Part shown: positions 12,861-25,002 of the stretch, in pieces
Numbering within the stretch: position 1 is the first letter of the stretch
How the letters are laid out: each line of letters begins with the position of its first letter
Assembly (NCBI RefSeq): GCF_016429255.1
Contig: NZ_JAELUG010000004.1
Span: forward strand, 62,001 to 126,000
Direction of reading: 5' to 3'
Source: Rhizobium sp. ASV8
Lineage (GTDB): Bacteria; Pseudomonadota; Alphaproteobacteria; Rhizobiales; Rhizobiaceae
DNA: 64,000 nt
The notes under the pieces: generated by a model
What the model was told of the DNA's origin: nothing
The model's input: the letters and a program-made list of their open reading frames with translations, nothing else
Database searches by the model: none
Made by a program: the position numbers and the translations under genes

Positions 12861-13346
12861 ATGTTTGAACGCTTTCAGGAATTTCTTCACAACCTGACCC
12901 AGGACCACCCGAAATCCGGCTTTGCACCCGACGACCCGCGCGTCGCGGTCGCGGCGCTCTGTATCCAGGTCATGGAGGCGGACGGCAAGATCGAGAACAG
13001 CGAGAAGAAGAGGCTGCGCAAGCTTCTGAAGGAGCAATATGGTCTTGAAGGCCGCAAGCTCGATGCGCTGATCGCCGCCGGCGAGGAGGCCGAAAGCGAG
13101 GCAGTCGACTACTATAGGTTCACTTCGGATCTGAAGCGTCATCTCGACAGCGCCCAGCGGCTCGAGCTGCTCGGCATTCTCTGGGATATCGTCTATGCCG
13201 ATGGCGAGCGCAGCGAGATGGAAGATCACGCGATCTGGCGCATCGCCGACCTCATGGGCATATCCGACCGCGAACGCATCATGAAACGCCAGGAGGCAGC
13301 TGCTCGCGCACCCGGCTTCAGGGTGGAGACAGGCAATGATGATTGA
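12861..13346 (+). CDS. TerB-like tellurite resistance family protein
   Basis: This 161-residue, mostly helical protein fits the TerB/DjlA N-terminal family: AALCIQVMEADGKIENSEKKR in the first half and the matching second repeat LGILWDIVYADGERSEMEDH, each with the acidic D-G-x motif that may bind a metal. Such proteins are common in rhizobia; the tellurite link is only by family name. Its end overlaps the next gene by 11 bases, so the two are probably co-translated. Confidence 0.88.
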   Translation: MFERFQEFLHNLTQDHPKSGFAPDDPRVAVAALCIQVMEADGKIENSEKKRLRKLLKEQYGLEGRKLDALIAAGEEAESEAVDYYRFTSDLKRHLDSAQRLELLGILWDIVYADGERSEMEDHAIWRIADLMGISDRERIMKRQEAAARAPGFRVETGNDD

Positions 13347-14064
13347 AGCGCCGAAGCGCGCCGGGCGACCCATACTGATCGTGCTTCATCAGGAGCGTTC
13401 GAGCCCCGGCCGCGTCGGCCAGATGCTGCTGGAAAAGGGCTACGACCTCGATATCCGCCGCCCTGTTCTCGGTGACCGGCTGCCCTCGACGCTTGCCGCG
13501 CATGCTGGCGCCGTCATCTTCGGCGGCCCGATGAGCGCCAACGATCCCGACGATTTCGTCAAGGCCGAGATCGACTGGCTGAAAGTGCCGCTCAAGGAAA
13601 ACCGTCCTTACCTCGGGATCTGTCTTGGCGCACAGATGCTTGCCCGCCATCTCGGCGCCAAGGTGAAAGCGCGCGACGACGGCAAGACCGAGATCGGATG
13701 GTATGCGCTGAACCCCACGGAGAAGGGCCGGCTGCTGATGCGCTGGCCGCAGATGGTCTACCATTTTCACCGGGAAGGCTTCGAGCTGCCCCATGGTGCC
13801 GACCTGCTTGCGACTGCGGAAACCTATCCTAATCAGGCCTATCGTTACGGCGCCAATGCCTGGGGCCTGCAGTTCCATGCCGAACTCACGCGCGCCATGA
13901 TGCAGCGCTGGGTCGTACATGGCGAGCACCGCTTCTGCATGCCGAATGCGCAGCAGGGCCGCGAGCATCTGGAAGGCCGCATGATCTTCGACGGCGCGCT
14001 CAAGGCGTGGCTGTCGGAGTTCCTCGATCTGGTCTTCGAGGGCAAGCAGGCGATGGCGGCTTAA
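13336..14064 (+). CDS. Class I glutamine amidotransferase-like protein
   Basis: This 242-residue protein has a complete GATase1 triad: the nucleophile cysteine in GICLGAQMLARHLG, and the His/Glu pair in LQFHAELTRAM. The GGPMSAND oxyanion-type segment is also present. Stand-alone members of this family are often called GMP synthase-like, but no synthetase domain is present and the amino acceptor is unknown. ATG codons at 13336 and 13339 are both possible. It overlaps the TerB-like gene. The AT-rich ParA-SIR2 island begins downstream. Confidence 0.87.
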   Translation: MMIEAPKRAGRPILIVLHQERSSPGRVGQMLLEKGYDLDIRRPVLGDRLPSTLAAHAGAVIFGGPMSANDPDDFVKAEIDWLKVPLKENRPYLGICLGAQMLARHLGAKVKARDDGKTEIGWYALNPTEKGRLLMRWPQMVYHFHREGFELPHGADLLATAETYPNQAYRYGANAWGLQFHAELTRAMMQRWVVHGEHRFCMPNAQQGREHLEGRMIFDGALKAWLSEFLDLVFEGKQAMAA

Positions 14065-14291
14065 AGCGGCTTTGTAATCTCGTTATCAAAGGTTACCTCA
14101 TGACACGCATCGCTCTCGCTGCAGCGCAATCCTGTAATCAATCCACCTCAGTCGACATCGAAGCGACTAATGGATCACTAAGCTACTTGAAAAACGGCAA
14201 CAATTGAGTCCCTAAGAATTATCATGCTTATTCTCTTACTGATTGCTCTATCTCACCTGAATAAGCTGCTCGGGAAAAGGTCTGCATGTTT

Positions 14292-15182
14292 TCACTTTTC
14301 TGATTTCGCAAGGAACGCAGCAAATATCTCACGGCGCCGAGCTTCAGCCGCTAGACTAAGCTCGTTGATTAGCACTGGCAATTGGGAGTGGTTGTCAGAA
14401 GTATCATATTGAATTATCTGAAGTTTCCTAAGGCGGCGATTAATCTCCACGATGTTTGAGGGTACTCCGTGAGCTGAGAAAATATAATGCGGCCGCGCCT
14501 TCTCATAACGCAATGCATATAACTCCATAAGCGATGTAATTGCTGGATCTTCCATGGAAAATCCAATAAATAGAAAGGTATAATTAAGAAGAAGAGTCTC
14601 TAAAAATGAAGCATATTCAGAATTACCAAATGCAAGCCTGATATACTCAGACCGCGAGAACACAAGACTCTGCACATCGTCAACTGTTCCGTGAATCTTC
14701 ACGAGATATTTTGTTGAATGGCTTTTAAATATATTAAATATAGAACGATCTATTCGCGAAATTACCGTTGGCAGATGAGTTGCATTCCCAAGGCGATTTT
14801 CCCAAGACACCTCAATCAGCTTATCAAAATTCGTCGTGAGAATAATTCTTTGGTCAAGGGCTACGATTGCCTCGTGCAGAGGGGATGGATCAGCCATCTG
14901 CCCAAATTCTTTCGAGACAAGCTCCTCCCACTGATCCTGTAAAGCTCGTTGGAGTATCTCGCAAGCAAGCAAGAAATCTCTTTGATTTAGTAAATCGGCA
15001 ACCTGTTCCTTTACGTCTTGCTCAGCAAGCTGGCTCGCGTCAGAAAGAAACTGCTGCCACGTTTTTATGCGGCCGTTGGCGCGTGTGGTCGCACTATTAG
15101 AAACGCCAGCACCTAAGAACAGCGCTACGCGTTGCCGGGCAAGGTCCTCTAGCAAATCCGGATTAAATACATTCTCAGCCAC
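14292..15182 (-). CDS. Stand-alone SIR2-like NAD-binding protein
   Basis: This 296-residue protein is almost entirely a SIR2-like domain. Motifs in order are VALFLGAGVS (residues 19-28), ILTTNFDKLIEV with Asn118 and Asp120, LVKIHGTVDD with the predicted catalytic His164, SLVFSRSEYIRL, and FLFIGFSMEDPAI. These are the NAD-binding and hydrolysing positions of SIR2 proteins used as NADase effectors in phage defence (Thoeris ThsA, DSR, SIR2-HerA). The GTG at 15182 is chosen because it overlaps the stop of the upstream ParA gene by 8 bases (GTGGCTGA); a longer frame runs to 15224. Codon use is much more A/T-rich than in neighbouring genes, suggesting transfer. NADase activity and defence function are inferred. 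Confidence 0.85.
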   Translation of the reverse strand: MAENVFNPDLLEDLARQRVALFLGAGVSNSATTRANGRIKTWQQFLSDASQLAEQDVKEQVADLLNQRDFLLACEILQRALQDQWEELVSKEFGQMADPSPLHEAIVALDQRIILTTNFDKLIEVSWENRLGNATHLPTVISRIDRSIFNIFKSHSTKYLVKIHGTVDDVQSLVFSRSEYIRLAFGNSEYASFLETLLLNYTFLFIGFSMEDPAITSLMELYALRYEKARPHYIFSAHGVPSNIVEINRRLRKLQIIQYDTSDNHSQLPVLINELSLAAEARRREIFAAFLAKSEK

Positions 15183-16281
15183 GATCGAGCAAACCACCAA
15201 GATTTTCAAGATAACGAGCGGCAATTACTCGATAAATCTCTCGTGCCTGCTTACGAAGTTGAGTATAACTTCCCGTACCACTTACACCAATCATTGGCTC
15301 ATGTTGACTTTGAGATTTTGGCGCCAAACTGCCAAGATGCCTGATATCACCTAAATGCGGATCAACTTTATTCGCGTCATAAAATCTATTTAGGCTAGTT
15401 GCGATCTGTAAAGGGAAACTCTCGCTGATATTTTTATATGCTTGAACGATGCGTTTTTTGACCGCATCTTCACCATTGTCCGGATCCGGTTCGGTACCCG
15501 TCCGTTCTTTATGTTGCTGTGTTACGTAGCCGACAAATCGAAGAGTTCGAGCTTGATCGATTGCCGGAATTTCAGACGGATCCTCAGATAGGGAGATGCC
15601 GGTTCGGAGTTCCTTTTGCCAAACGGTCACGGTGGAGCCAATATTTTTGATTGCCCAGCCAGAAAAAATATCAATGGCCATCGGAACTACAAAAAAATCC
15701 ATCGCAAGTAAGATAGATCGATTGATTGCTCCAAGTGATGGCCCCATGTCAAAGAAAACAAAATCATAGTTAAGCTCCCTTGCTTTCGCTACAAGATCAG
15801 CAAAAACAAAAGTCGTTCTCAACCCTCGCATACCACCGGCTTTTGCATCTCGCCAGTCTTGCGCCAACAAGTCTTCCTGAAGTGCTAGTCTTGGATCGCC
15901 GATAATCAGATCGAAACCGAACTTTGGCACTGTACGGATAGGTAACGTTTCACCATAGCCTTTTCCGAGCGTTAGCGGACGAATAACGCTATAAACGCTT
16001 GAAGGATCTGCCTCACTATATGTAATTAATGCATCTTCATCATCCAACACATACTGTGTCAAATTGCATTGTGGGTCACCATCAACGACCAATACTTTAG
16101 CTCCGAAGCTTTGCGCAAGCTCAGCCGCTAAGTTAGCAACGAGTGTTGTTTTCCCAACACCTCCTTTGTTATTGAAGAAACATGTTGCGTAGCCGCCATT
16201 CTCCTTCAACGGCTTGAATAGCGCCTCATGCTCAGGGAGCAAGGGCAAACCAACCTTTTTACGTCGATTTTGCTTCGCCAT
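15175..16281 (-). CDS. ParA/MinD-type ATPase, partner of the SIR2-like protein
   Basis: This 368-residue P-loop ATPase has the deviant Walker A box FFNNKGGVGKTTLVAN with signature Lys39 and Lys44, switch I-like VVDGDPQCNLTQYVL (Asp67, Asp69), and the Walker B-like VFFDMGPSLGAINRS (Asp178). A basic 30-residue N-terminal extension precedes the ATPase core and about 150 residues follow it. No ParB, parS-like site or replication gene is nearby, so plasmid partitioning is unlikely. RBS AGAGGAAAG precedes the ATG. It is translationally coupled to the SIR2-like gene, which suggests it senses a trigger or restrains the SIR2 effector. It could also be a domesticated relic of a plasmid module. Confidence 0.88.
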   Translation of the reverse strand: MAKQNRRKKVGLPLLPEHEALFKPLKENGGYATCFFNNKGGVGKTTLVANLAAELAQSFGAKVLVVDGDPQCNLTQYVLDDEDALITYSEADPSSVYSVIRPLTLGKGYGETLPIRTVPKFGFDLIIGDPRLALQEDLLAQDWRDAKAGGMRGLRTTFVFADLVAKARELNYDFVFFDMGPSLGAINRSILLAMDFFVVPMAIDIFSGWAIKNIGSTVTVWQKELRTGISLSEDPSEIPAIDQARTLRFVGYVTQQHKERTGTEPDPDNGEDAVKKRIVQAYKNISESFPLQIATSLNRFYDANKVDPHLGDIRHLGSLAPKSQSQHEPMIGVSGTGSYTQLRKQAREIYRVIAARYLENLGGLLDRG

Positions 16282-16303
16282 TTCTTTCCTCTAATGTAAC
16301 CTT

Positions 16304-16319
16304 TGCGCGTAGATGCGCA
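16304..16319. promoter_or_regulatory. Small palindrome in the leader of the ParA-SIR2 operon
   Basis: TGCGC and GCGCA arms of 5 bases flank a 6-base centre, between the proposed -10 box and the ParA start codon. It could be an operator or a leader hairpin; the short arms make chance a real alternative. Confidence 0.3.
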
Positions 16320-16327
16320 CTACAGCC

Positions 16328-16356
16328 TATAAAATTTAATATCTGCCAAAAGACAA
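16328..16356 (-). promoter_or_regulatory. Possible promoter of the ParA-SIR2 operon
   Basis: On the minus strand a TTGTCT (-35, 16356-16351) and a TTTATA (-10, 16333-16328) are separated by 17 bases in a markedly A/T-rich stretch 47 bases upstream of the ParA ATG. This is a by-eye match to a sigma-70-type promoter. Confidence 0.4.
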
Positions 16357-16527
16357 AATAATCTTCATAGATCGCCTGGTAATTTTTACGGAATTGTCTC
16401 GCGAAGGAGGTTCATATAGCCACCTAACCCATTTCGCTGCAGTTCCATTCGATGGCAGGCACAGGGAACACGCGTGTAGCTAACAATATCTATTGGTATG
16501 GAAGACGTGAAAGGTGACTGTAGTTTC

Positions 16528-17784
16528 CTACGCCGGCTGCGGGTCGCCGTCGCGATCCGGCGCATTCAAACTGTCGATCCGGCGAAGCTGTGGGAAGCCG
16601 GTCGCCCAGAGAAAGGCAACAGCAAGCGTGCCGAGACCGCCGACGACCACGGCGGGGATAGCACCGAAATAATGCGCCATGATGCCGGCACGGAATTCGC
16701 CGAGTTCGTTCGATGCCCCAACGAAGACCATGTTGACCGCATTGACCCGCCCGCGGACATGATCCGGCGTCCAGAGCGTGATCAGCGTCTCGCGGACATA
16801 GACCGAAATCAGATCCGATGCGCCCATGATGGCAAGGGCGACGATCGACAACCACGGCGAATGTGAGATGCCGAAGATCAGCGTCCCCACGCCAAACATG
16901 GCAACGCCGATGAACATGCAAATGCCGGCACGATTGCGAATGGGGTAGGTCGCCAGGAACACGCCCATGGCGATCGCGCCAAAGCTTGGCGCGGCGCGCA
17001 GCATACCAAGACCCCAGGGACCGAGCGTCAGGATATCCCGCGCATAGACGGGCATCAGTGCGACTGCGCCGCCGAGCAGCACCGCGAAAAGATCGAGAGA
17101 GACCGCGCCGAGCACCACCTTTTCCGACCAGATGAAGCGGAAGCCGGCAAGCATTTCGCTCAGGCTGCGCTTCTCATGCGCCACACGTTGCTGCGGCTTC
17201 GGAATGAGGAAGGTCAACACCGAGCCGGACGCAAAGAAAAGCACGGCCACGGTGTAAGCAACGCTGGGGCCGACGCCGTAAAGCAAGCCGCCTGCCACCG
17301 GACCGAGAATGGCGGCGGCATCCCAAGACATCGAGTTCCAGGTAATGGCGTTCGTCAGGTCCGCAGGCGGGATAAGATTGGGCGCCAGCGATTGCATCGC
17401 CGGCGTCATGAAGGCGCGCTCGATGCCGAAGACCACGAGGATCATGAAGACCGGAAGCGGCGCAAACCCGCCCGAGACGGTGAGAAACAGCAGCGCCGCC
17501 GCGCAGAGAGTGCCGACGAAAATGCAGATCGCCGCAATCAGGCGCCTGTTGTAGCGATCGGCGACTGTGCCCGTCACCAGAATCAGCAGCAGCGACGGCA
17601 GAAACTGCACCAGACCGATCAGGCCGAGATAGAGTGGCTGGCCCGTGTGCTCGTACATCTGCCAACCGACGGAGACGCTGACGACCTGCGTGGCAAAGGC
17701 GGTGAGGAAGCGCGCGAAAAAGAAATAGGCATAGGCGATATGCCTGAAGGCAGCAAACCGGTCTCCGCTGGCAGCGAACGACAT
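16528..17784 (-). CDS. MFS transporter, EntS-like
   Basis: This 418-residue protein has about 12 hydrophobic segments and the MFS motif GTVADRYNRRLIAA after the second helix. Segments such as VSVSVGWQMYEHTGQPLYLGLIGLVQFLP and the second-half LGALVFGIS-like helices resemble the enterobactin exporter EntS group (MFS_3). The substrate is unknown. The ATG at 17784 gives the family N-terminus MSFAASGDRFAAFRH; an ATG 11 codons earlier is less likely. It lies upstream of the ParA-SIR2 island on the same strand, with a 246-base gap. Confidence 0.85.
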   Translation of the reverse strand: MSFAASGDRFAAFRHIAYAYFFFARFLTAFATQVVSVSVGWQMYEHTGQPLYLGLIGLVQFLPSLLLILVTGTVADRYNRRLIAAICIFVGTLCAAALLFLTVSGGFAPLPVFMILVVFGIERAFMTPAMQSLAPNLIPPADLTNAITWNSMSWDAAAILGPVAGGLLYGVGPSVAYTVAVLFFASGSVLTFLIPKPQQRVAHEKRSLSEMLAGFRFIWSEKVVLGAVSLDLFAVLLGGAVALMPVYARDILTLGPWGLGMLRAAPSFGAIAMGVFLATYPIRNRAGICMFIGVAMFGVGTLIFGISHSPWLSIVALAIMGASDLISVYVRETLITLWTPDHVRGRVNAVNMVFVGASNELGEFRAGIMAHYFGAIPAVVVGGLGTLAVAFLWATGFPQLRRIDSLNAPDRDGDPQPA

Positions 17785-18710
17785 GGGGCAGAACTTTCCG
17801 GGCCGCGGCCAGCGCAAACACGCTCGCCATTAAAACATGATCCAGCACGCTCTTGAGCGCGGGACGTCCGTTAGTCGCCAATGCCCCCCATCCTGTCAAC
17901 ATGAAACTGGGACTTGCGTGTTCATGCGGGAGCATTCCCAGGAAAACTGCGCAGCGATTTTCTGTCAAAAATGCGCAAAGAAACAAAAGGATAGAGCATT
18001 CTCGCGTCTCAAGGAAAAGCGGAAACATTTGATGGCGCTGACGGATTGCCAAGTTCGCATCTCGCTGCCACCAACCACACGGCGCCACGGTCTGCAAACC
18101 GCTATGCTATATCTTGGTATAGGATAGTTGCTCTACTGTATAAAGAATAACCGACAATATAGCCTTTGTTTTACTGTGAGATATTGCTATGTGCTGGATG
18201 TCGGCCTGCAAAAGCCGACTCCCAAAGGAACTTGTTTATGTCGCCCGACAGTAGTCGAACAGTCGCGCCGAAGAGGCTGCATCATCAGGGTTAACTGCCC
18301 GTCTCGATGATGCGACCTCGCGAGGCGCAATCGAGGTACGAGATGATCGATAAACTGCTTTCTTCACGCCCATCGCGCTCCGGACCAAGGTCTTCCTTAT
18401 ACGCCTCGACGCGACATCGAACGTAACTTCACTCGCCTCAAATCGTCAGATCATGCGGTACGGAGCCAACCGGCTTCAAACCTCCTTGGCATCGGGCTAC
18501 CCCGATGCCCATCGGATCTTGATGGGCGGAGCGCAAAGGCGACCCGAAGCCCAAGGCCCCGAATACCTCTGGATTGACGAGAGACAATATCGTTAGCCGG
18601 CGCAACATCAATCGACTCCCGAACGCGTCGAATAGCCGGCAATCATTCACCTGCGTGCCTCAGGCTGAACGCAGCACAGAACGGCACAGGCCAGACTTGG
18701 AGTAATCCTC
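17785..18710. other. Long non-coding stretch with one repeat
   Basis: About 925 bases without a convincing gene. It contains the GAGCATT-type repeat at 17930-18027. Short open frames cross the repeat and lack Shine-Dalgarno sequences or recognisable products. The part 18120-18200 is A/T-rich and may hold a promoter. No tRNA or known RNA was recognised. Confidence 0.5.
17930..18027. repeat. Rhizobial GAGCATT repeat, copy 1
   Basis: This element of about 98 bases begins GGAGCATTCCCAGGAAAACT and ends with AAGGAAAAGCGGAAAC. It aligns over its whole length with 33402-33501, sharing the blocks CAGCG-TTTTC, AATGCG-AAA and the GAGC-TT-TCGCG centre. It is an interspersed mosaic repeat. Confidence 0.75.
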
Positions 18711-19139
18711 ATGCGTCTTCTCATCAGCGGTGGCAGACACTTTGCCGACACGACCGTCATTCGCAAGGAACTCGACCACATACAGAACGCATCGCCGATA
18801 TCTGTCCTGATCCATGGCGGTCTGCCCGCGCTCGGCGTGGAGGCCGAGAATTGGGCGCGCGAACACAACATACACGTGATCAGGTATCCCGCGAATTGGT
18901 CCCTGCTCGGCAAGCATGCCGAGGCCAGGAGAAACGCATTCATGCTGGAGGATAGCCGCCCCGATATCATCCTGATGTTTCCGGGCGGGCGCCAAACCGC
19001 TTTCTTCGAGCGCACCGTTAGGGAATTGCGCATTCCGATGACGGTTGTCGGTCAGTCGAATGCGACCGCTATATCGCAAGAGGATGCCGAGCATCCCTGG
19101 GCGCCGTCGTCTCAGCCTCGGCAATCCATGCATATTTGA
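18711..19139 (+). CDS. SLOG-family DUF2493 (YspA-like) protein, copy A
   Basis: This 142-residue protein has the DUF2493/YspA pattern: RLLISGGRHFADTTVI, LIHGGLPALGVEAENWARE, RYPANWSLLGKHAEARRNAFML and DIILMFPGGRQTAFFERTV. The SLOG superfamily binds nucleotides or nucleotide-derived ligands. The Gly-Gly and R-N residues of the predicted ligand pocket are intact. ATG 18711 is preceded by GGAG. A paralogue on the opposite strand (19313-19858) faces it. The function is unknown; a ligand sensor or nucleosidase-like role is inferred from the fold. Confidence 0.82.
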   Translation: MRLLISGGRHFADTTVIRKELDHIQNASPISVLIHGGLPALGVEAENWAREHNIHVIRYPANWSLLGKHAEARRNAFMLEDSRPDIILMFPGGRQTAFFERTVRELRIPMTVVGQSNATAISQEDAEHPWAPSSQPRQSMHI

Positions 19140-19204
19140 GGCGAAGCATTCTCCGAAGCGCGCCGCAGTCTTTCAGATTGAGCTGTGGTGCTTTGGCCTC
19201 TGAT

Positions 19205-19252
19205 CTCGCGCCTGATGCCGAAAAATGTGAGCGGCTTTCGGCATCATGCTCT
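19205..19252. repeat. CCGAAAA/TTTCGG palindromic repeat between the two DUF2493 genes
   Basis: CTGATGCCGAAAAA and CTTTCGGCATCATG form an imperfect hairpin about 46 bases long, of the same type as 47499-47548, 53354-53404 and 62252-62300. It lies in the convergent gap and could act in transcription termination. Confidence 0.65.
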
Positions 19253-19312
19253 GCGTCTCTGATTTGTGAGCCGGACGATTTTTACCGCGCCTCACGCGCA
19301 CCACTGGAATTG

Positions 19313-19858
19313 CTACGGCGTAACGCGGTTCGATCCCACTGTCTGCGAACGGGAACGCGCCGTTCGCCGATGGTCCGCCGTGCCCGCGCTTTTCAAGCTG
19401 TGAAGTGACGGCGGCCGGCACATTTGGTCCTCCTGCAACTCGACATCCGCTCGATCGCCTTGTTTGCCCAGCCCGGCGATCGCCCTGTAGCCCGCGAGAC
19501 GCCCCTGACGATTGAGCCTCACGACGATAACGGGGATGGCAAGCTGATCGGCAGCGCGGTGAAGAGCGATCTCCGACCCATCGCAGGGTAACTGAAGAAT
19601 AATATCGGGTCTGGAATCACGCAGCATCAGCGATATCCATCTCGTCTCGCTGTCCGGCCCCTGTATCGACCAGTTTGCGGGATAGCGGAGCGCATCGACC
19701 GCGTTCTCCCGCGCCCATCTATCGACCGCAACCCGCACGGTCGGCGCTTCGCCGTGAATGATGAGGGAAATGCCGCGGCGAGCATGAATGCGGTCGAGTG
19801 CGGTTTGGATCGGGCTGAGGCGCGCAACGCCATTGCCGCCATGTATCAATAGACGCAT
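19313..19858 (-). CDS. SLOG-family DUF2493-like protein, copy B (diverged)
   Basis: This 181-residue protein aligns with copy A over about 125 residues: RLLIHGGNGVARLSPIQ, IIHGEAPTVRVAVDRWAREN, RYPANWSIQG, MLRDSRPDIILQLP. Several signature residues differ: the FPGG motif of copy A is LPCDG here, and the A-R-R-N-x-F segment is T-R-W-I-S-L, so ligand binding may be lost or altered. The last 50 residues, basic and Ser/Thr-rich, are not part of the domain. ATG 19858 is preceded by GGAGA. It is convergent with copy A and lies upstream of mgtA's 3' end. Confidence 0.7.
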   Translation of the reverse strand: MRLLIHGGNGVARLSPIQTALDRIHARRGISLIIHGEAPTVRVAVDRWARENAVDALRYPANWSIQGPDSETRWISLMLRDSRPDIILQLPCDGSEIALHRAADQLAIPVIVVRLNRQGRLAGYRAIAGLGKQGDRADVELQEDQMCRPPSLHSLKSAGTADHRRTARSRSQTVGSNRVTP

Positions 19859-20017
19859 GTTTGGTCTCCAGGTCGGATTGATTTCCAGATTTGTCGGAGC
19901 GATTTCGCGCTGCGGCGTCCGCAGCGCGGGGCAAAGCTATTTGGGCGAAACAGGAACGAGCCGGACTTCCGTGAAGGATCGAACGAGAATGCTCGCCCGC
20001 CGGTGCCCGTTCGGTGC

Positions 20018-22717
20018 TCAATACCACTGCTTGAATGCTCGCATGTAGAGCATCTTCGCCGTCTGGGCGACGATGCAGTAGCTCAGCAAGGTGCCGGCGA
20101 GCCATGGGAAGTAGGGCCACGGAAGCGGCTGCAGGCCGATGATCGTTCCAAAGGGAGAGAACGGGACATAGATACCGACTGCCATGACCAATGTGGTCAT
20201 GAGCATGACCGGTAGCGCCGCAGTGCTCTGGATGAAGGGAATTTTCTGCGTCCGCAACATATGGACGACCAGTGTCTGCGACAGCAGGCCCTCGATGAAC
20301 CATCCCGACTGGAAGAGCGTCTGATGCTCCACAGAGTTTGCACCGAAGACGAACCACATCAGCGCAAACGTGGTTATGTCGAAGATGGACGAGGTCGGCC
20401 CGATCCAGATCATGAAGCGGCTGATGTTCTTGGCATCCCATTTGCGTGGCTTGCGCAGGAATTCCTCATCCATCCGATCCCATGGCAGGGAAAGCTGGGA
20501 GATATCGTACATCAGGTTCTGCACGAGCAGCTGGATGGCGAGCATCGGCAGGAAGGGAATGAAGGCACTTGCAACCAGAACCGAGAATACGTTCCCGAAA
20601 TTGGAGCTTGCCGTCATATTGAGGTATTTCATGATGTTGCCGAAGGTCTCGCGACCCTGGATCACCCCCTCTTCGAGCACCATCAGGCTTTTCTCGAGCA
20701 GGATGATATCGGCGGATTCCTTGGCGATATCCGCACCGCTGTCGACGGAGATGCCAACATCTGCATCCCTCAATGCCGGCGCGTCGTTGATGCCATCGCC
20801 GAGGAAGCCGACGGTATGGCCATTCTGCTGAAGCGCCTTCAGCACGCGGGATTTCTGCAGCGGCGTCAGCTTGGCAAAGACGGTGCGCGATTCCACCAGC
20901 GTCGCCAGTTCTTCCTCGCTCATCTTCTCAAGATCGCGGCCAAGGATCGGCACGCCCGGCTCAAGCCCGACCTCCCGGCATATCTTCGCCGTCACGACGG
21001 CATTGTCGCCGGTCAAGACCTTGACGGTAACGCCATGTTCCTTGAGGGCGCGGATAGCGGAAACGGCTGATTCCTTGGGCGGGTCGAGGAAGGTCAGGAA
21101 GCCGCGGATCGTCAGGTTCTTCTCCACGCTGCTATTGTAGCGCTTGGCCTCCTCTTCCAGCCCGATCTCCCTTGTCGCAACGATCAGCACGCGGAAACCG
21201 TCCTCATTATAGGTGCGTGAAAGATCCATCAGCTGCCGACGGCGCTCGTCGTCGAGGGGCCTGATATCCAGCCCGTCGCGAAAATGCGTCGAGATCGCAA
21301 GCATCTCTTCGACCGCACCCTTGCAGACGAGAAGATGCTTCTGGTCTCGCCCCTCGACGATGATCGACAGGCGCCGACGCACAAAGTCGAACGGCAGTTC
21401 GTCGACCTTCGTGTAGTCAACCATCTTGGCGATATCGGACTTCTCCGTGGCAAAGCGGACGACGGCCTGGTCCATCAGGTTGCGCATGCCGCTCTGATGA
21501 TGGCTGTTCAGCCAAGCCAGCGAAAGAACCTCTTCATCAGCGCGCCCGTTTACATCGACATGATGCTCGAGGATGATGCGATCCTGCGTCAGCGTGCCGG
21601 TCTTGTCGGTGCACAAGATATCCATCGCTCCGAAATTCTGCACTGCGTTGAGACGCTTCACCACGACCTTGCGCCGGGCCATAGAAACGGCACCTTTGGC
21701 GAGGTTCGACGAGACGATCATCGGCAACATTTCCGGCGTCAATCCCACGGCCACGGCGACGGCGAACAGGAAGGCATCCATCCAGTTGCCCTTTGTGAAA
21801 CCATTGATCAGGAAGACGATGGGAACCATGACCAGCATGAAGCGGATCAGAAGCAGGCTGACGCTATTCACACCACGGTCGAACGAGGTCTGAGCCCTCG
21901 TGCCGACGATAGACTTGGCAAGGGACCCGAAATATGTGCGAGGGCCGGTGGCGACCACAAGCGCCGTGGCAGTGCCGCTCACCACATTCGTGCCCATGAA
22001 GCAGATATTGGGAAGATCCAGCAGATCGACACGGTCTGAAACGACCGCGATCGCCGATTTCTCCGCAACGGCGCCGAGCGTATCGTATTTCTCGACCGGA
22101 AGCGCCTCGCCCGTCAGCACGGCCTGGCTGACGAAGAGATCGCGGGATTCGATCAGCCGCACGTCGGCCGGGATCATGTCGCCCGCCGAGAGCTGGACGA
22201 CATCTCCCGCGACGAGTTCGCGCATGGGGATTTCAATGCGTTCCGGCTTGGTGTCATAGCGATGACGGCGCAGGACGGTGGCCGTGGTACGCACCATCGC
22301 CTTCAAGGCTTCCGCCGCCCTCGCGGACCTGTATTCCTGCCAGAAACGCAGCAGCGCGCTGATCGTCACCATTGTCACGATGATGGTAACGCCGGTAATA
22401 TCCGGATCGTCGCCCGATTGAAGCGGTAGCCAGTAATCGGTGAAGAATGAAATGCCGGCAAGCAACAGCAATACGCCGATGAACGGGTTCTTGAAGGCCA
22501 GAAGCAATTGGATGATCGCATGCGGCGGCTTGTCATGCGCCACCTCATTGGCGCCATCCCTGACGAGACGCTCCCCCGCTTCCTTATATGTGATGCCGTC
22601 GACCCGGCTTGCGACGTTTGCCAGCGTCGCATCGAGGCTGTTCTGCGCCTCGATGATCGCCCGCATCGACAGCCTTCTGCTGTCTTTCAACTCGGTCTTC
22701 TTGTCGATTATTTTCAT
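20018..22717 (-). CDS. mgtA: Magnesium-transporting P-type ATPase
   Basis: This 899-residue P-type ATPase of the Mg2+ importer (MgtA/MgtB, class IIIB) group sits in the inner membrane. It has the phosphorylation motif ILCTDKTGTLTQD, the TGD-type segment VKVLTGDNAVVTAKI, the hinge VGFLGDGINDAPALRDADVGI, and LTGEALPVEKY in the actuator domain. Ten membrane helices are expected. Start 22717 is chosen for the AGGAGG just upstream; a frame 11 codons longer exists. In enterobacteria such genes are under Mg2+-sensing leaders; no such leader was recognised here. Confidence 0.95.
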   Translation of the reverse strand: MKIIDKKTELKDSRRLSMRAIIEAQNSLDATLANVASRVDGITYKEAGERLVRDGANEVAHDKPPHAIIQLLLAFKNPFIGVLLLLAGISFFTDYWLPLQSGDDPDITGVTIIVTMVTISALLRFWQEYRSARAAEALKAMVRTTATVLRRHRYDTKPERIEIPMRELVAGDVVQLSAGDMIPADVRLIESRDLFVSQAVLTGEALPVEKYDTLGAVAEKSAIAVVSDRVDLLDLPNICFMGTNVVSGTATALVVATGPRTYFGSLAKSIVGTRAQTSFDRGVNSVSLLLIRFMLVMVPIVFLINGFTKGNWMDAFLFAVAVAVGLTPEMLPMIVSSNLAKGAVSMARRKVVVKRLNAVQNFGAMDILCTDKTGTLTQDRIILEHHVDVNGRADEEVLSLAWLNSHHQSGMRNLMDQAVVRFATEKSDIAKMVDYTKVDELPFDFVRRRLSIIVEGRDQKHLLVCKGAVEEMLAISTHFRDGLDIRPLDDERRRQLMDLSRTYNEDGFRVLIVATREIGLEEEAKRYNSSVEKNLTIRGFLTFLDPPKESAVSAIRALKEHGVTVKVLTGDNAVVTAKICREVGLEPGVPILGRDLEKMSEEELATLVESRTVFAKLTPLQKSRVLKALQQNGHTVGFLGDGINDAPALRDADVGISVDSGADIAKESADIILLEKSLMVLEEGVIQGRETFGNIMKYLNMTASSNFGNVFSVLVASAFIPFLPMLAIQLLVQNLMYDISQLSLPWDRMDEEFLRKPRKWDAKNISRFMIWIGPTSSIFDITTFALMWFVFGANSVEHQTLFQSGWFIEGLLSQTLVVHMLRTQKIPFIQSTAALPVMLMTTLVMAVGIYVPFSPFGTIIGLQPLPWPYFPWLAGTLLSYCIVAQTAKMLYMRAFKQWY

Positions 22718-22964
22718 GATTGTGCCTCCTGCCGCTTCAAGGCGGGGCACAATGCGTCACGCTCGATTGGAGGCGCGCGACAACGTGCCCAACCAGCGTG
22801 TCGCGGTCGGGTTCGATATTGGTATTTTCGCTGGGAAAGCTCGCCGCAGTCGGTTGAGATCAGCGATTGCGACGAGCCAGACTATGTCCGTGTCCAAGAG
22901 AGTCTCTTGAGGTTCGCTGCAGATGGGCCTGCAGCAAAAGGAATTGATGAGGGTGGCCGGCCGT
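22718..22964. other. Upstream region of mgtA
   Basis: This 247-base gap precedes mgtA on the minus strand and follows the 98-residue unknown gene. It should hold the mgtA promoter and leader, but no Mg2+ riboswitch-like structure or leader peptide was recognised by eye. Confidence 0.35.
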
Positions 22965-23261
22965 TCAGATGGCGTCGACGGTCCGCAAACGCCGCGGCGT
23001 CAGCATCCCCATCAGCCTGTCAAATGAGGCGACCACCCATCGCAATCCTATCTCGTCGTCCGTCAGGTGCCATCGCATCTCGAGGCGGCCTGTTCCGGAG
23101 TTGACGTGCCAGTGCGCGCAAAGATGCGGCCGGGGAGCCGGCAAGTTGCCGGCGGCCTCCCGCAGCTTGGTCGACGATGAGCCCGCACGCGAACTTTCAG
23201 CCGATGCCGGCGCAAACTTGACGATATTCGAACGAGGGAATTTCTGAAATTCATATGTCAC
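22965..23261 (-). CDS. Small protein of unknown function
   Basis: This 98-residue protein starts with a GTG preceded by GGGAG. It begins VTYEFQKFPRSNIVKFAP, has a central HLCAHWHVNSGTGRLEMRWHL and ends VASFDRLMGMLTPRRLRTVDAI. The Cys-His-Trp-His cluster followed by a Gly-rich turn and a second Trp resembles small conserved rhizobial proteins, but no named family was recognised. Composition and the Shine-Dalgarno sequence support a real gene; the function is unknown. Confidence 0.55.
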   Translation of the reverse strand: MTYEFQKFPRSNIVKFAPASAESSRAGSSSTKLREAAGNLPAPRPHLCAHWHVNSGTGRLEMRWHLTDDEIGLRWVVASFDRLMGMLTPRRLRTVDAI

Positions 23262-23858
23262 GGTTGATCTCCCGTTCGGCCACGGCCTGAAGGAGCTGTT
23301 TGATCACCGCATTTCAGCGATCAAGCATACCGGCAGACCGAGACCAACACTTCTCATTCGCATCTCTCCCGGCAAGCTCCTGTGCTTGATCCGCGAGAAG
23401 ATGACGTTCGATGAATCGCGTATTACGATTTTGAGAAAATGGCCTAGTCCAACCTAGACAGGTACGCGATACAGAGACCGCCTGCGGCTGTCAAGGCTCT
23501 TTTGCCTCAATCTACGCATGTCCTGGCAACCCTATCGGAACCAAGATTTTCGGACAGATGAAGGATCGCGAGCGCTCCGCCTCGCGACTGCAGGACCCGG
23601 CGCCTCGGCGGCCGCCTCAATTCCGCTGAGCTTTTGCAGGACGTAATTCTTGGTGCTGTGTTCAACACCACTTATCTATTGTCGCGTGGAATGATACTGC
23701 GGACAACAAGCGCCCGTTTTCTCACCCATGGATGGATGATGCCCGGCAATCGATGATCGAACCAGCGGGCAAAATTCATCAATGAAATCAAATAGAAAAC
23801 GATATTGACAACGCGTAGCGCAAACAATAATTTGCGGAACCGCGAAATGGAGACGGAC
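23262..23858. other. Gene-free stretch upstream of yggT
   Basis: About 600 bases with no supported gene. From about 23270 to 23456 one plus-strand frame stays open but has no plausible start codon, so it may be a gene remnant. The A/T-rich part 23780-23840 may hold the yggT promoter. Confidence 0.4.
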
Positions 23859-24152
23859 ATGCTCGCCTTATTTCAAACCATTGATCTGGCTTTGAATCTT
23901 TATACTTGGGTGCTGATCGCCAGCGCCATCTTTTCATGGCTCTACGCTTTCAACGTCATCAATTCGAGCAATCAGTTCGTCAACTCCGTCGGCAGCTTCC
24001 TCTATGCGGTCACCGAGCCGGCGTTGCGCCCGATCCGCCGCATCCTGCCCGATCTCGGCGGCATCGACATTTCGCCCGTCATCCTGCTTCTGCTGATCTT
24101 CTTCATCCGCTCGCTGATGTGGAATTCGCTGGTTCCGCTGTTCCTGCGGTGA
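23859..24152 (+). CDS. YggT family membrane protein
   Basis: This 97-residue protein has two hydrophobic segments (about residues 8-30 and 70-92) separated by the family motif [28 protein letters not shown]. YggT proteins are small inner-membrane proteins linked to osmotic stress and, in some bacteria, to cell-division or pilus loci; the precise role is unknown. ATG 23859 is chosen for the GGAGA 5 bases upstream. Its TGA overlaps the GTG of the DUF167 gene. Confidence 0.92.
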
Positions 24153-24463
24153 GCAGGCCCTGGCAGGCCTCTTCGGATCACCTGCGGCTGTCCGTGCGTC
24201 TCACGCCCAATGGCGGGCGTGACGCGATCGACGGCGTCGAGGTGGGCAGCGATGGCGAAAGCTATCTGAAGGCGCGCGTCTCCGTCGCGCCGGAAAAGGG
24301 CAAGGCCAACAAGGCGCTGATCGCGCTGCTTGCCAAGAGCCTCGGCATCCCAAAATCCTCGCTTGCATTCCTCAGCGGTGAAACTGCGCGTAAAAAAATC
24401 CTCCGGATCGAGGGCGAACCGGAGGATCTGATGGTGAAATTAACTGCTATCGCGAAGAGCTGA
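24149..24463 (+). CDS. DUF167 (YggU) family protein
   Basis: This 104-residue protein starts at a GTG that overlaps the yggT stop (GTGA, 24149-24152). It has the YggU pattern [39 protein letters not shown] and [14 protein letters not shown]. The function of this family is unknown, although it is widely conserved next to yggT. It ends 2 bases before the stop of ppa on the opposite strand. Confidence 0.93.
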
Positions 24464-24465
24464 TA

Positions 24466-25002
24466 TCAGGCCTTCGCCTTCTTGGCACGCTCGATAGCTT
24501 CGACGATCAACTCGCCTGCTTCCTTGGAGCCACCCCAGCCATAGATCTTAACCCACTTGCCGGGCTCCAGATCCTTGTAGTGCTCGAAGAAGTGCTCGAT
24601 CTGCTTCAGCGTGATTTCCGGCAGGTCGGTATGTTCCTTGACCTTCTCGTAGCGCAGCGTCAGCTTCGGCGAGGGAACGGCGATGATCTTCTCGTCCTTG
24701 CCGGAATTGTCTTCCATCTTCAGCACGCCGATCGGGCGAACATTGATGACGCAGCCGGGAACGAGCGGACGGGTGCTGGCGATCAGCACGTCAATCGGGT
24801 CGCCGTCTTCGGAGAGTGTGTGAGGAACGAAGCCGTAATTGCCCGGGTAGGTCATCGGCGTATAGAGGAAACGGTCGACGACCAGCGTACCGGCGTCCTT
24901 GTCCATTTCATATTTGATCGGATGACCGCCGACCGGCACTTCAACGATGACGTTGACGTCTTCGGGCGGGTTCTTGCCAATGGAAATCGCGTCGATGCGC
25001 AT
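24466..25002 (-). CDS. ppa: Inorganic pyrophosphatase
   Basis: This 178-residue soluble family I pyrophosphatase hydrolyses PPi to two phosphates. The active-site signature DGDPIDVLI (with the catalytic Asp residues) follows [10 protein letters not shown]; the [18 protein letters not shown] segment and the K-V-K-E-H...D-L-P sequence are also family-typical. Length is normal for the hexameric bacterial enzyme. It has its own upstream region and is convergent with the DUF167 gene. Confidence 0.97.

Follow-up and report, generated by a model that had tools for sequence, protein, structure and literature searches.

A clade of small SLOG proteins is usually encoded downstream of the magnesium transporter gene mgtA, on the same strand, in Alphaproteobacteria and Gammaproteobacteria. 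The linkage to mgtA is clade-wide, and it is a more valuable result than the loss of motif residues in one Rhizobium member. Two proteins of this mgtA-linked clade, A and B, are encoded in the window, the whole stretch of 64,000 nucleotides from Rhizobium sp. ASV8 that we analysed; they are paralogous small single-domain SLOG (YAcAr) proteins. In our main reading, to which we give a probability of roughly 0.4, the clade is linked to Mg2+, the motif-complete A binds a ligand, and B, diverged yet selected in the position downstream of mgtA, acts as a modulating partner.

The locus comprises the following features.
18711-19139, plus strand: copy A, a motif-complete YAcAr (PF10686) SLOG protein of 142 aa (PF10686, 68.1 bits)
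19313-19858, minus strand: copy B, a YAcAr paralogue of 181 aa without the motif residues (PF10686, 48.0 bits)
20018-22750, minus strand: mgtA, for a magnesium-translocating P-type ATPase, on the strand of B and upstream of it (NF011702, TIGR01524)
22965-23261, minus strand: orf98, a 98-aa protein of an unnamed family, upstream of mgtA (E 1.2e-8 with a profile built without the Rhizobium row)
18691-23474, no strand: the block A-B-mgtA-orf98, alike in R. tropici PTD1, where the flanks differ
19210-19249, no strand: a palindrome in the A-B spacer, with 14-nt arms (93% complementary) and a 12-nt loop

The open reading frames of A and B are convergent (tail to tail), and 173 nt separate their ends. 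Both proteins exceed the Pfam cut-off of 28.2 bits for PF10686 and span profile positions 1-64 of 66; YAcAr, the YspA, cpYpsA-related SLOG family, is the same as DUF2493. In a single BLASTP comparison they share 44% identity over 113 aa (E 2e-30). The earlier note had described them as convergent SLOG/DUF2493 paralogues, and the position, the profile scores and the identity all bear this out. They are the only PF10686 matches in the 7.9 Mb host genome, and scans with Pfam and PADLOC returned no further domain and no defence match for either protein. The translations also contain the motif contrast drawn in that note, FPGG and ARRN in A against LPCDG and TRWI in B. In full, A has IHGG, RYPANWS, EARRN, DSRPDIIL and FPGG, and the corresponding segments of B are IHGE, RYPANWS, ETRWI, DSRPDIIL and LPCDG.

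The neighbouring mgtA product scores 1704 bits with NF011702 (cut-off 975) and 1381 bits with TIGR01524 (cut-off 611). The pair had been placed in a gene-poor region beside mgtA; mgtA indeed adjoins, but what matters is that B, downstream of it on the same strand, occupies the usual place of the clade. A does not hold this position, and since it is convergent to the mgtA unit, its co-expression with mgtA is not implied. We notice that the residues conserved across the clade (R58, Y59, P60, W63, M78, D81 and S82, of which W63 and M78 are family-wide and the rest are not) are all present in both A and B.

The first set of loci contains 12 at which MgtA precedes the SLOG gene on the same strand, either immediately or with a single gene in the gap. 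A further set has MgtA upstream on the same strand at 33 of 34 loci, two of which repeat records of the first set, and these linkage counts, which include many related genomes, are not independent events. Phyllobacterium sp. 628 and T1293 show the order mgtA, small ORF, DUF2493, MgtC/SapB, and four Rahnella plasmids (from ten with a match) the order mgtA, Na/Pi cotransporter, DUF2493. SLOG genes downstream of mgtA were also found in the genomes G433, G294, G518, G816, G1023 and G1242. In the genus of G294, the SLOG gene occurs in 5 of 20 genomes, all five with the order mgtA, SLOG, MgtC, although two of them are apparently the Phyllobacterium sp. 628 and T1293 records again.

The genus of G1023 is probably Pseudomonas or close to it. 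There, a SLOG match occurs in 32 of 149 genomes, and in 31 of the 32 the gene follows MgtA on the same strand, either immediately or after an intervening Na/Pi cotransporter gene. The gaps between SLOG and MgtA genes range from 13 to 3070 nt, the widest of which may hold a further gene. The exception, G1318, is also the weakest match (36% identity). The IMG/VR contig L179 carries a SLOG gene, too, closely preceded by the final 72 residues of an MgtA (71-76% identical). Phage matches of B amount to 56 records, all below 60% identity.

Clade members without adjoining mgtA are G734, G1211, the third copy of PTD1 (C28) and the Methylobacterium type. The genomes G734 and G1211 contain no MgtA over the cut-off, and two Methylobacterium plasmids have the order hisE, NRAMP, Na/Pi, SLOG. 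With two members in genomes short of such an MgtA and others beside NRAMP and Na/Pi genes or a hisE-like gene, the link of the clade is not to MgtA alone. The third clade member of PTD1 (L049 9524-10749) adjoins a gene for a hisE/PRA-PH-type nucleotide pyrophosphohydrolase near the contig end. A separate observation concerns the NRAMP protein at L123 4280-5953, which reaches 269 bits with Pfam Nramp and 96 bits with the MntH model, far below the cut-off of 430; it is perhaps an Mg2+-type NRAMP relative. An MgtC-like stretch in G1211 disagreed with the longest open frame there and was left out of the counts.

More distant YAcAr proteins, with identities to A of 45% or less, behave differently: at 0 of 15 loci does MgtA, MgtC, Na/Pi or NRAMP occur in the flanks covered, which extend to at most about 10 kb per side. 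Matches on Azospirillum and Methylorubrum plasmids sit amid phage-like and plasmid replication genes, not by mgtA; we took them as distant YAcAr proteins, and they stand outside this count of 15. In searches of the open-licence PMC literature, of which the broadest covered the best-ranked 15 of 714 papers, we found no link of DUF2493 or SLOG with mgtA or magnesium transporters; judged by their titles, three of the DUF2493 papers there concern phages and one Bradyrhizobium mutants.

The gene is accessory, with members of the clade in 32 of 149 genomes in the genus of G1023 and A orthologues in 3 of 148 in the window's own genus. Such a minority distribution would suit a hitchhiker that merely accompanies the mgtA cluster and has no role in Mg2+ biology. 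We consider this improbable, because order and strand stay constant in Alphaproteobacteria and Gammaproteobacteria while the companions between the two genes vary (Na/Pi cotransporter, small ORF or nothing), and because G734 keeps the SLOG gene by the small ORF even though no MgtA over the cut-off is left there. A Mg2+-linked role of the clade is the reading that we prefer.

Other genes recur in the mgtA cluster. The orf98 family has a match at 42 of the 50 loci covered, counting two that duplicate other records. The protein has no Pfam match, is 70% identical in PTD1 and contains a conserved W-R...G-L stretch towards the C-terminus. In G734, an ORF of this family overlaps the start of the SLOG gene, and orf98 possibly serves as a partner to either MgtA or the SLOG protein. 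Meanwhile, a porin-like gene lies downstream of SLOG at 23 of 31 loci in the genus of G1023 (for example L161 10256-11029), one of them broken in two; its product matches PF13609 below the cut-off. We infer that the porin-like and small proteins are orthologues of PA4824 and PA4826 of P. aeruginosa.

A search of 148 genomes of the window's own genus for the pair, as the earlier note had proposed, recovered it in three. B has matches at E ≤0.001 in 6 of the 148 and at more than 70% identity in 3, namely the window's own genome, G103 (Rhizobium sp. ASV20; B 80%, A 94%) and G141 (R. tropici PTD1; B 76%, A 78%). A accompanies B in all three, likewise convergent, and orthologues of the two occur only together. 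Against NF011702, 10 of the 148 genomes are above the cut-off, the top three at 1704, 1698 and 1689 bits and the next at 1159; these top three are exactly the genomes with the A/B pair. When the window stretch 13300-24500 was compared with the PTD1 stretch by blastn, only 18691-19049 and 19465-23474 matched. This likeness, limited to 18691-23474, indicates that the four genes, from A to orf98, move or are retained as a unit. ASV20 resembles the window further out on the side of A as well, with a match over 16532-23100 at 88%.

The two genes had been said to face each other across a palindromic repeat. The palindrome exists, but it is not a specific or constant part of the arrangement. Its core, CCGAAAAnTGnGnRCGG, has 12 matches in the genome (19210-19249 and 11 elsewhere) against 0 for a reversed control. 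The A-B spacer of ASV20 holds a related stem; that of PTD1, where the A and B ORFs overlap at their ends, has none. The palindrome is therefore incidental to the pair, a dispersed element, and its copy number together with its absence in PTD1 ruled it out as a pair feature. We take it to be reminiscent of the dispersed intergenic palindromes of rhizobia. A scan of 18000-20100 for sigma-70 promoters and terminators gave 0 of each, and a search with Rfam over 17800-23800, aimed at a leader or riboswitch of mgtA, returned one match far below the gathering score (E 0.73).

By comparing A and B with 30 other YAcAr proteins, in which 21 positions are at least 90% conserved, we found 19 of the 21 family columns kept in A and 13 in B. 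A departs from the family at A89 and A103 only, and R9, A70, R74, N75, G92 and G93 are retained in all three A orthologues. In B, A70, R74, N75, G92 and G93 are lost in all three orthologues, where S70, W74, I75, C92 and D/E93 stand instead, and R9 is lost in two, being present only in PTD1. Further losses of B are A89 and, in PTD1, P91; W48, W63, G67, M78, P84 and D85 are retained. The R-N and G-G residues that mark the family are thus found in A and missing from B, which is, on its sequence, a relative of the YAcAr family without its motif.

B might be regarded as a decaying, pseudogene-like copy of A that has no function. Eight of the 21 family-wide columns are gone from it, and its C-terminus is ragged and unconserved after about aa 150. 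The substitution pattern, however, contradicts functionless decay, and we rejected this candidate, to which we attach hardly any credence. In three pairwise comparisons (Nei-Gojobori), dN/dS is 0.11-0.15 for B and 0.07-0.10 for A; as far as about residue 150, most changes in B affect the third base of the codon, a pattern absent beyond, and the frame is open in all three genomes. Moreover, a tail at aa 114-131 (LNRQGRLAGxRAIAGLG) is identical at 16 of 18 positions across the three orthologues, compared with 90 of 113 for the B domain; A has only 5 of 18 residues over these positions. These patterns indicate that B is under purifying selection and possesses a conserved tail of its own, which A lacks. 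The earlier description of B as degenerate is correct for the signature residues, but B is not simply degenerate, given its dN/dS, its orthologues and its conserved tail.

The origin of B is harder to place. In the tree, in which the row G904b is a shortened reading of its protein, B sits on a branch of roughly 1.0 substitution per site, and its placement apart from the A group is weakly supported. An AU test of six trees rejected none of them, with p 0.454 for A and B as sisters and 0.247 for B with distant YAcAr proteins. Five residue states common to A and B are present in at most 3 of 15 other clade members. B shares no rare state with the G433/Phyllobacterium, G734/G816 or Rahnella groups and one each with two other pairs. 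Local duplication, the question put by the earlier note, fits these data (AU 0.454, five rare states), and the tree assigns B no firm deep position. That note had named, as the outcome against a degenerate copy, that B would group within a separate intact DUF2493 family; no such family was seen.

B could also be a separate copy belonging to the mgtA operon, with A as a second, independently acquired clade member. This origin, which we hold to be doubtful though well worth keeping in mind, agrees with the position of B in the tree and the survival of every tested placement, with the usual clade position held by B, and with the third clade member of PTD1 on another contig. It has difficulty with the five rare states that join A and B while none links B with G433/Phyllobacterium or G734/G816, and with the co-occurrence of A and B orthologues without exception in the 148 genomes. 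We therefore favour, with moderate confidence, the view that B is probably an old local duplicate of A followed by fast change.

The predicted model of A has a mean pLDDT of 76.4 (7 sequences) and is weak after residue 115. In this model, strands 2-7 and 86-90 are directly followed by positions 9, 92 and 93, and helix 68-82 includes positions 70-75. The motif positions lost in B appear to sit on the face that commonly receives the ligand in Rossmann-like folds. The B model has a mean pLDDT of 71.1, and the order of its core elements is much as in A. Foldseek with the A model returned nothing at E ≤0.001, and a clade profile run against the sequences of solved structures gave chance-level matches only (best E 0.12). 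With no structure matched by sequence, it is Pfam and the model that tie the clade to SLOG structures.

In VIA-align comparisons, A matches a mix of CARF, LOG, DprA and other Rossmann-like chains (Z 7-10). For B, VC1899 and CARF chains come first (Z 10-11), a difference from A that carries no claim, and the absence of LOG and DprA among the best 50 matches listed excludes nothing. The fold of the A model matches the LOG structures 5its (Z 8.5, rmsd 3.8, 115 residues aligned), 5wq3 (Z 8.2, 3.0, 107) and 5zbj (Z 8.2, 4.4, 118), which might suggest that A is a LOG-type enzyme, a nucleoside 5'-monophosphate phosphoribohydrolase, recycling bases when Mg2+ is scarce, with B as an inactive companion. 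However, these LOG chains (Z 8.2-8.5) are surrounded by numerous others at Z 7.4-9.8, and many unrelated Rossmann-like chains reach an equal range. The LOG motif is PGGxGTxxE; the corresponding stretches are PGGRQTAFF in A and PCDGSEIAL in B. All 13 aligned clade members lack the last E and the G that precedes T, and T is kept in 9 of 13. With the glutamate and this glycine missing throughout, catalytic LOG activity is unlikely, and the enzyme interpretation as a whole seems to us very unlikely. We retain A as a putative ligand binder.

Two papers describe SLOG domains as modules that act on adenine-nucleoside compounds or sense cADPR-type molecules (PMC9503650; PMC7824862). Given its neighbours mgtA, MgtC and Na/Pi transport, the clade protein would most simply be a cytosolic sensor of nucleotide state during Mg2+ starvation. 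It would act in the starvation response alongside mgtA, phosphate uptake and MgtC, bind a nucleotide-type ligand whose state tracks Mg2+ availability, and signal onward to a partner, which may be the pump, a transporter or a regulator. For the three Rhizobium genomes, we speculate, as a weaker inference, that the job is split. A would bind the ligand, and B, made together with MgtA at low Mg2+, would be a pocketless partner that tunes the signal, pairing either with A in a mixed dimer or with the target of A. The more specific proposal of a dedicated SLOG module for Mg2+ homeostasis with mgtA, Na/Pi and MgtC, split in some Rhizobium into a binding A and a pocketless, tail-bearing B, is tentative, and we would sooner bet against it than for it.

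Bacteria starved of Mg2+ must fit pump activity to their ATP and phosphate pools. A small nucleotide-fold protein by mgtA in unrelated genera is a candidate link from nucleotide state to Mg2+ uptake, one that is concrete and easily deleted. The A/B pair provides a natural contrast between a motif-complete and a motif-less copy. The presence of two such related genes next to the pump gene, one without the usual motifs and yet under selection, suggests that Mg2+ uptake may have a further, so far undescribed level of control.

Among known systems, the SIR2-SLOG protein ThsA of Thoeris differs from A and B, which carry PF10686 only and have no PADLOC match. Elsewhere in the window, at 14292-16281 on the minus strand, we observed a SIR2_2 protein (PF13289; PADLOC ThsA-like, 96.5 bits), the ORF of which overlaps that of a ParA-type ATPase (AAA_31); the stretch 14061-16531 corresponds to about 650 bases in ASV20 and looks like a small defence-type insertion. 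LOG phosphoribohydrolases appear similar in fold to the A model and differ in the motif PGGxGTxxE, which is absent from A and B.

Another parallel is the PA4824-PA4826 region of P. aeruginosa. According to the available text of one study, only PA4824-PA4826 (PA4825 being mgtA) change in expression on addition of Mg2+ among the candidate genes studied; deletion of mgtA or of PA4824, a predicted beta-barrel gene in one operon with it, lowers intracellular Mg2+ in fungal spent medium, and deletion of the neighbouring PA4826 leaves fitness in co-culture unaffected (PMC11218974). Both that region, with mgtA, a beta-barrel gene and a third neighbour, and the loci in the genus of G1023, with a small upstream ORF and a porin-like gene, share this layout; in contrast, the same text mentions no SLOG gene for the operon (PMC11218974). 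By sequence, A and B match the PF10686 YAcAr family itself, whose curated cut-off they exceed over nearly the whole profile. B departs from that family in lacking its R-N and G-G residues, and the clade as a whole is set apart by its small single-domain proteins, the conserved R58-Y59-P60 and D81-S82, and its usual linkage to mgtA.
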